Position numbers and translations under genes: made by a program. From Burkholderiales bacterium (lineage in GTDB: Bacteria > Pseudomonadota > Gammaproteobacteria > Burkholderiales > Burkholderiaceae_E): 64,000 nucleotides of DNA. Below the pieces are notes generated by a model. That model worked only from the letters and a program-made list of their open reading frames with translations. It had not been told where the DNA came from and did no database searches. Below, piece after piece: positions 47,615-50,600 of the stretch. Position 1 is the first letter of the stretch. Each line of letters starts with the position of its first letter. The DNA lies in assembly GCA_027487815.1 (NCBI GenBank), contig JAIYCW010000067.1:1-64000 (forward strand), given 5' to 3'.

Positions 47615-50600
47615 CAAATGCCACAGCCATTATGCGCATCCCTAAATGGTTTCAATCCACGCCCCCGCGCGGGGGGCGACGACAGAGGCATGGCAATGCC
47701 CCCGCCAATGTCAGTTTCAATCCACGCCCCCGCGCGGGGGGCGACCCGATTCCTGAACAACCCCAACCGATTGAGGCTATGTTTCAATCCACGCCCCCGC
47801 GCGGGGGGCGACCAGGTTGTGCACCCAAGCCGAACAAGAGCTTGAGTTTCAATCCACGCCCCCGCGCGGGGGGCGACCGCAATTGTCGCGTTGTCGGGCT
47901 GGTACATTTTCAGTTTCAATCCACGCCCCCGCGCGGGGGGCGACGAGCGTTCGCATTGAGCGGCTGCAGGACATCAGCGTTTCAATCCACGCCCCCGCGC
48001 GGGGGGCGACTGCGGATGCGGGTAAGCAAAACGTGGGGCTGTTAGTTTCAATCCACGCCCCCGCGCGGGGGGCGACTGGGCCGCCTAGTCCATCCACAAG
48101 CGGGGTAAAAGTTTCAATCCACGCCCCCGCGCGGGGGGCGACATGGGCGCGGTGGGTTTACAGTTGGCACTTTCAGGTTTCAATCCACGCCCCCGCGCGG
48201 GGGGCGACCAAGCTGCTGCGTGAAAGCTACTGGTTCAGCAAGGTTTCAATCCACGCCCCCGCGCGGGGGGCGACCTGGCGTGGTGGGCGCGGTGGCATTG
48301 GCTAAAAGGTTTCAATCCACGCCCCCGCGCGGGGGGCGACTTAGAAAAAAAGCACGAAGCGCCACCTAACCAAGTTTCAATCCACGCCCCCGCGCGGGGG
48401 GCGACGATTGAGGTGTTGCCGCACTGGAGCAACATCTCCTGTTTCAATCCACGCCCCCGCGCGGGGGGCGACCTGGTAGCCGGGCTGTTGGCTATCGCCA
48501 TGCCAGTTTCAATCCACGCCCCCGCGCGGGGGGCGACCTCCGGCCCCTGGGTTCGATCACCGCCTCGCGCCGTTTCAATCCACGCCCCCGCGCGGGGGGC
48601 GACCGGGCCGCCTAGCCCATCCACAAGCGGGTTAAAAGTTTCAATCCACGCCCCCGCGCGGGGGGCGACTGTCAATGGTGCCGTTGGTGGCAGCAACATC
48701 GTAGTTTCAATCCACGCCCCCGCGCGGGGGGCGACAAACGTAGTAGCTCGATGGGATAGCCCGAAGTGGTTTCAATCCACGCCCCCGCGCGGGGGGCGAC
48801 GCCATCTTGTATCAGGCGGCGCGGTATCAAATTGTTTCAATCCACGCCCCCGCGCGGGGGGCGACTTAAGGGCCATTGTTCCAAAGGCTCTAAGTGCCAT
48901 GTTTCAATCCACGCCCCCGCGCGGGGGGCGACCTAGGCACGCCTTATGACGTGGTGCGCTTTGATGTTTCAATCCACGCCCCCGCGCGGGGGGCGACATT
49001 CCACCAACATCGTGCCGGTATCGGCAGCAGTGTTTCAATCCACGCCCCCGCGCGGGGGGCGACGCCAGTTAAATCATTAATAAGGGGTAGTTACATGTTT
49101 CAATCCACGCCCCCGCGCGGGGGGCGACTTGGCTGGGGCCGCCTACTTTGTAACTCGGGCAGTGTTTCAATCCACGCCCCCGCGCGGGGGGCGACCCTGG
49201 CGACAAATTTACATACCGCCAGCCCAGCCGGTTTCAATCCACGCCCCCGCGCGGGGGGCGACAGCTTGTTGCAAGACGGGTTGCTGGTATTAAAAGGTTT
49301 CAATCCACGCCCCCGCGCGGGGGGCGACGTTACGGCCCCGTTTGCCGTGCCTGTCAGGGCCGGTTTCAATCCACGCCCCCGCGCGGGGGGCGACCTGATC
49401 AGCAAATTATTGGCCACGCAATAATCGCTGTTTCAATCCACGCCCCCGCGCGGGGGGCGACTTGTGGTCACGCAATACACCCCCACGCTGACATTAGTTT
49501 CAATCCACGCCCCCGCGCGGGGGGCGACATTCGATTGGGCCACTGCCGATCTACATTGCGCTGTTTCAATCCACGCCCCCGCGCGGGGGGCGACACGCAC
49601 AATCATTGCTCTTGGAGATTCAATTACTGTTTCAATCCACGCCCCCGCGCGGGGGGCGACGGGCGGCGATGCGTCGGCGCAGCACTATTCTGTGTTTCAA
49701 TCCACGCCCCCGCGCGGGGGGCGACTGAGGCAATCACTCGATCACTTGCTGCATAGTGGTTTCAATCCACGCCCCCGCGCGGGGGGCGACCAAGTTAAGT
49801 CGGCGCTGCTCAAGCTTGAGCTCAGTTTCAATCCACGCCCCCGCGCGGGGGGCGACCAAAAAGCGCACACTTGGTCTACAGATTTTTAATGTTTCAATCC
49901 ACGCCCCCGCGCGGGGGGCGACCGATGAGGTGGCAGAAGTCGCGATCAACGATGCGGTTTCAATCCACGCCCCCGCGCGGGGGGCGACAGACCATGCTTA
50001 AAGGCATTCACGACAAGCTGCGCGTTTCAATCCACGCCCCCGCGCGGGGGGCGACGCAGCATGATCGCCTGATTGCATCGATATCGCCTGTTTCAATCCA
50101 CGCCCCCGCGCGGGGGGCGACGCATAGGTGGCGGCCGCGCAATCCAAGCTAACTGGTTTCAATCCACGCCCCCGCGCGGGGGGCGACCGGTAAAACGTCC
50201 TGCATTACCGACCCCTCCCGGGTTTCAATCCACGCCCCCGCGCGGGGGGCGACTACGCCTGAAGGCCATTACTTTATGGGTTTGCTGTTTCAATCCACGC
50301 CCCCGCGCGGGGGGCGACCACGGCGCGGCTAAATGGCCTGCTGAAAAGCGCTGTTTCAATCCACGCCCCCGCGCGGGGGGCGACTTTTCCAATTCCAAGA
50401 TAAGCCGCCACGCTTACATGTTTCAATCCACGCCCCCGCGCGGGGGGCGACTTTCTGGCGATGTTTCGTCTTTGATTTCCCAGCGGTTTCAATCCACGCC
50501 CCCGCGCGGGGGGCGACCCAGGTGCTTGAGTGGTCGACCAGCGATTAATGTTTCAATCCACGCCCCCGCGCGGGGGGCGACACCATGCTTAAAGGCATTC

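Follow-up and report, generated by a model that had tools for sequence, protein, structure and literature searches.

Pairs of related spacers in CRISPR arrays have been described in bacteria and archaea. In Legionella pneumophila, a type I-C array contains overlapping pairs of older and newer spacers against the element LME-1, which the authors, in the passages on these pairs, read as possible natural primed re-acquisition after escape (PMC5071653). In Sulfolobus islandicus, near-matching spacers (at least 88%) were taken as independent captures (PMC2946923). These two reports, in the parts that deal with such spacers, are the published precedents for the kind of re-acquisition considered here (PMC5071653; PMC2946923). 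It has also been pointed out that diverged spacers and separate acquisitions are hard to distinguish, as worded in the relevant passage of PMC6267562. With regard to the machinery, the cleavage by Cas4 is described as PAM-anchored (PMC6519985), and the type I seed is given as positions 1-5, 7, and 8 (PMC5071653). In the PAM data of PMC8482600, TTC is named as the more canonical motif of type I-C, and an Acidovorax I-C group is given with TTN.

Layout of the type I-C locus

We analyzed a stretch of 64,000 nucleotides from a Burkholderiales bacterium (hereafter the window). It carries on the minus strand a type I-C CRISPR-Cas locus consisting of cas3, cas5c, cas8c, cas7, cas4, cas1, a probable cas2, and the array. 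The cas genes other than cas2 were assigned by NCBIfam models scoring over their cut-offs. The features are as follows:

47582..51239, minus strand: CRISPR array, 56 repeats of 32 nt and 55 spacers
51240..51424, minus strand: probable leader, placed by position only, between cas2 and the first repeat
51425..51718, minus strand: probable cas2 (97 aa), an ORF named by its size, its place and, in part, sequence features that we take to be those of cas2
51721..52749, minus strand: cas1 (type I-C), TIGR03640, 482 bits (cut-off 385)
52774..53445, minus strand: cas4, TIGR00372, 130 bits (cut-off 65)
54070..54951, minus strand: cas7 (Csd2), TIGR02589, 402 bits (cut-off 182)
54969..56822, minus strand: cas8c (Csd1), TIGR01863, 492 bits (cut-off 219)
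56819..57496, minus strand: cas5c, TIGR01876, 184 bits (cut-off 85)
57511..59805, minus strand: cas3 (HD nuclease and helicase), TIGR01587 and TIGR01596, both over their cut-offs

On the minus strand the repeat ends in ATTGAAAC, which we take to be a mark of type I-C. Because of this ending, and because cas1 and cas2 lie at the high-coordinate end of the array, the leader is placed at ∼51.24-51.42 kb, and the spacers were numbered S1 to S55 counting from it. The I-C repeat quoted in PMC5071653 agrees with the ending of the window repeat. Fifty-five of the 56 repeats are identical; the single degenerate one (47582-47614, with one extra base) is the terminal repeat at the leader-distal end, where degeneracy is expected. 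The spacers are 33-35 nt long in 54 of 55 cases, and the remaining one is 32 nt.

Four named relatives of the window cas1, from Limnohabitans sp. Rim28 and three MAGs, share 53-81% identity with it; the value of 81% applies to Rim28 and two of the MAGs. In all four relatives an array is also found downstream of cas1 in the same direction, and none of their 45 spacers is in common with the window spacers. A cas8c-type system was detected in 2 of 74 genomes of the host's family, the window's genome counted. Since the system is so rare in the family, transfer between lineages is possible, and the I-C system at 51721-59805 may have been acquired horizontally.

Related spacers in the window and in other arrays

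An earlier note on this DNA had reported two 34-nt spacers in the array that match at 31 positions. The coordinates and the identity proved exact on recheck:

48077..48110, minus strand: spacer S48 (34 nt), 48th from the leader, the older of the pair
48604..48637, minus strand: spacer S40 (34 nt), the younger of the pair, 31/34 to S48

S40 is the younger one, as the note had it, because it lies nearer the leader; both spacers belong to the old third of the array. They differ at crRNA positions 6 (C/A), 22 (A/G), and 34 (A/G), have common ends in the same register, and are separated by seven other spacers. Among the 1485 spacer pairs of the array, scored in both orientations, two real pairs stand out with scores of 33 and 29, and the next best pair reached 13. 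Chance similarity is ruled out for S40/S48, as only ∼1e-11 pairs would be expected at such identity. The neighbors of S40 and S48 at offsets -3 to +3 gave scores of 4-9, which is background; S40 and S48 are thus related spacers in unrelated context, the pattern expected of independent re-acquisition. Because they are of equal length, this pair by itself carries no length signature of re-acquisition.

A second near-duplicate pair, unmentioned in the earlier note, carries such a difference in length:

49989..50023, minus strand: spacer S19 (35 nt), the older of the second pair, identical to S10 across 33 nt
50582..50614, minus strand: spacer S10 (33 nt), the younger of the second pair, identical to S19 across 33 nt

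The identity runs from the PAM-proximal end and the lengths differ at the PAM-distal end; the neighbors of S10 and S19 at offsets -3 to +3 score 5-8, again background. Unequal lengths with a fixed PAM-proximal end fit PAM-anchored processing by Cas4-Cas1-Cas2, unlike in-array copying.

We consider it highly probable that S40 and S48 are separate PAM-anchored acquisitions of one 34-bp site from a mobile element that existed in two allelic forms. Within this explanation, the kind of source element, how many there were, the PAM, and a possible priming by S48 are inferences. One element bearing two similar (paralogous) sites could also have supplied both spacers, and a viral contig of our searches with two similar glycine-rich ORFs adjoining each other (L007) serves as an illustration only of such an arrangement. 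This origin is improbable, as the two spacers have exact common ends, and the seven spacers between them imply that they were not captured in one burst of two.

Other arrays were surveyed for comparison. The cas8c model TIGR01863 had hits in 44 of the 399 order genomes and in 39 of the 377 class genomes (38 over the cut-off), the window's genome being counted in both. The DNA downstream of cas8c was examined at 81 loci, those of the four named cas1 relatives among them; a usable array was obtained at 57 of them but not at the other 24, and with the window's array added the survey comprised 58 arrays with 1850 spacers, which form 48,398 pairs. Some of the 58 arrays are perhaps not strict I-C, because TIGR01863 also catches systems with 37-nt repeats and others. 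At five of the 24 unusable loci (L041, L065, L103, L104, and L120) a candidate array with badly called repeat borders was dropped; L065, if kept, would have contributed extra pairs. In the L065 array (about 10596-12179) a block of two successive spacers reappears at a distance of nine units, one of them exactly and the other with several small insertions and deletions, the repeat borders being badly called. Loci with little DNA after cas8c on the contig (G230, G662, G826, G817, G601, G853, and G686:C123) were left out, as were G756 (below the cut-off and at a contig end) and fragments in G359:C168.

The survey gave 32 related pairs: 16 identical, 12 non-identical with the same start, 3 shifted, and 1 on opposite strands. 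Six of the 12 non-identical same-start pairs differ in length and six carry 1-3 substitutions. Adjacent copies (10) or block copies (4) account for 14 of the 16 identical pairs, whereas only 1 of the 12 non-identical same-start pairs is adjacent; the Fisher p-values for the adjacency contrast (5e-5, and 5e-4 when every related group enters only once) are descriptive, because the classes were set after the first 38 arrays had been inspected. Two identical pairs are dispersed (spacers 26/44 of L047 and 1/7 of L101), so dispersal alone is no proof of re-acquisition. S40/S48 and S10/S19 both belong to the dispersed, non-identical class. In-register near-duplicates were also found in other I-C-type arrays (L045, L047, L072, L076, L078, L098, L099, and L119), and these resemble the window pairs in having the same PAM-side start, 1-3 substitutions and/or a change of length, and mostly a dispersed position. 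The substitutions touch the seed in three of the four other substitution-bearing arrays (L047, L072, and L078), unlike those of S40/S48, which avoid it.

Further kinds of relatedness were seen in single arrays. In L076 (array 9891-14225), one site appears to have been sampled three times, as spacers 0, 4, and 23: two copies are unequal only in length and the older third carries three substitutions. A search for the source of this triple in 46 genomes of the same genus matched only its own array. Spacers 9/38 of L118 and 11/22 of L095 are related with a shift of about one base and with substitutions, as if the PAM-side cut had slipped.

The survey bears on a further explanation, that a repeat-spacer unit was copied within the window array by recombination and acquired three point mutations later. 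Such copying does occur, as the identical adjacent and block copies in related arrays indicate, but these copies are identical and mostly adjacent, while the S40 and S48 units lie eight apart with unrelated neighbors, and the repeats are without changes. If repeats and spacers mutate alike, the probability that three changes are confined to S40/S48 is ∼5e-5; recombination may maintain the uniformity of the repeats, which weakens this argument from mutation rate. We regard in-array copying as very unlikely, slightly more so than paralogous sites. An assembly or strain-mixture artefact is hardly credible: the assembly is a 91-contig draft with 95.57% completeness and short reads handle near-identical units poorly, but the array forms one regular series throughout and the estimated contamination is 0.01. 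Acquisition from two homologous sites, which the earlier note had preferred to mutation within the array, is supported by both the array structure and the other arrays.

Coding pattern and search for the invader

The preference for two homologous genes had been based on a coding-like pattern of the three differences. In the minus-strand frame that starts at spacer base 2, two of them are indeed synonymous changes at third positions and the remaining one exchanges Thr and Asn. As evidence we rejected this pattern, because random changes often yield it and the frame is ambiguous. In simulations (20,000 trials) of three changes in the S40/S48 spacer, an open frame with two or more synonymous changes and no more than one non-synonymous change was obtained in 36% of cases, and three-change sets simulated over all 55 spacers reached the same outcome in 40%; scoring by third positions instead gave 36% and 42%, respectively. 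A plus-strand open frame, GPPSPSTSG[V/L]K, to which the note did not refer, contains one synonymous change, one at the third position of an end-cut codon, and one Val/Leu change, and fits the pair about as well as the minus-strand frame. We concluded that the S40/S48 difference is compatible with a coding source, without pointing to one.

A protospacer was sought in several collections. In the host's own genome only the array was matched, and the two-variant pattern with up to 3 mismatches gave no protospacer in three overlapping sets, each with the window's genome in it: 101 genomes among relatives, 74 from the family, and 399 from the order. BLAST searches of both spacers against phage and plasmid records, the check proposed in the note, returned partial matches and no protospacer: S40 had two short partial matches in phages and no match in plasmids, and S48 had no match in phages and two short partial matches in plasmids, all with E of at least 1. 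Codon-degenerate scans for the exact peptide F[T/N]PLVDGLGGP gave 0 hits in IMG/VR and 0 in GTDB contigs, a scan of IMG/VR for GPPSPSTSG[V/L]K gave 0, and tblastn of the two segments against phages gave no match. A relaxed version of the F[T/N]PLVDGLGGP pattern matched 6 IMG/VR contigs and the core pattern with third positions masked matched 27. The best ungapped match among the 33 pattern-matched contigs was 25/34 (L007, to S48), which we treat as noise because random sites obeying the same patterns reach at least 25 in 70% of simulations. Two candidate source genes were dropped: the glycine-rich ORF of L007 (PF21722), to which the noise-level match is antisense, and a tape-measure ORF of L005, whose match is only 23/34.

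For S10/S19, a scan of IMG/VR with two of the pair's three open frames gave 0 hits, the matches in phage and plasmid records (8 and 14 records) were all short and partial, with E of at least 1, and among the 74 family genomes nothing but the array itself was matched. S1 and S4, scanned in IMG/VR in one chosen frame each, also gave 0. A protospacer of the S40 or S48 variant was not found in the collections above, in which the host's own viruses may be missing; we counted this lack against capture from two variants.

Probable course of events and comparison with known systems

If S40 and S48 are separate captures, the type I-C adaptation complex, Cas4-Cas1-Cas2, would have made a PAM-anchored capture at both times. 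S48 would date from a first encounter with a phage or plasmid. At least seven more spacers would have been added before S40, which would come from the sampling, at the same PAM, of a related element whose version of the site differs at three positions. The differences at positions 6, 22, and 34 are all outside the seed, and the older spacer has no seed mismatch to the newer site. Because the seed is spared, the S48 crRNA is predicted probably still to recognize the S40 variant, and its imperfect recognition of the newcomer could have primed the capture of S40. For the same reason the pair looks more like drift between related elements than seed escape; three random changes miss the seed 49% of the time.

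S40/S48 would then document, cleanly and on a small scale, how a bacterium met variants of one mobile element more than once. The contrast found in the survey may serve to separate re-acquisition (dispersed spacers with the same PAM-side end and unequal sequence or length) from internal copying (adjacent and identical units). More tentatively, I-C adaptation might repeatedly revisit the same PAM-anchored sites, and long arrays might hold dated allele series of single phage or plasmid loci, a generalization that we regard as rather doubtful; the examples are the two window sites sampled twice and the L076 site sampled three times. If it were true, I-C arrays could be read as time series of invader evolution without the invader in hand.

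Near-duplicate spacers as marks of repeated encounters are already published, and S40/S48 is a sound but ordinary example. The L. pneumophila LME-1 case, as presented in the passages on these spacers, is like the window in that the system is type I-C and the two spacers belong to one array; there the targets overlap in one element (PMC5071653). It differs in having a known element and an older spacer with mismatches in the PAM or the seed, whereas the S40/S48 differences avoid the seed. The seed-touching substitutions in L047, L072, and L078 resemble one kind of LME-1 escape described there (PMC5071653). The S. islandicus pairs, in the part of that report devoted to them, are like those of the window in their different array context, and some have SNPs or unequal length (PMC2946923). 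Unlike S40/S48, which is in exact register within one array, 37 of the 41 pairs there are offset, with their spacers in different strains (PMC2946923).
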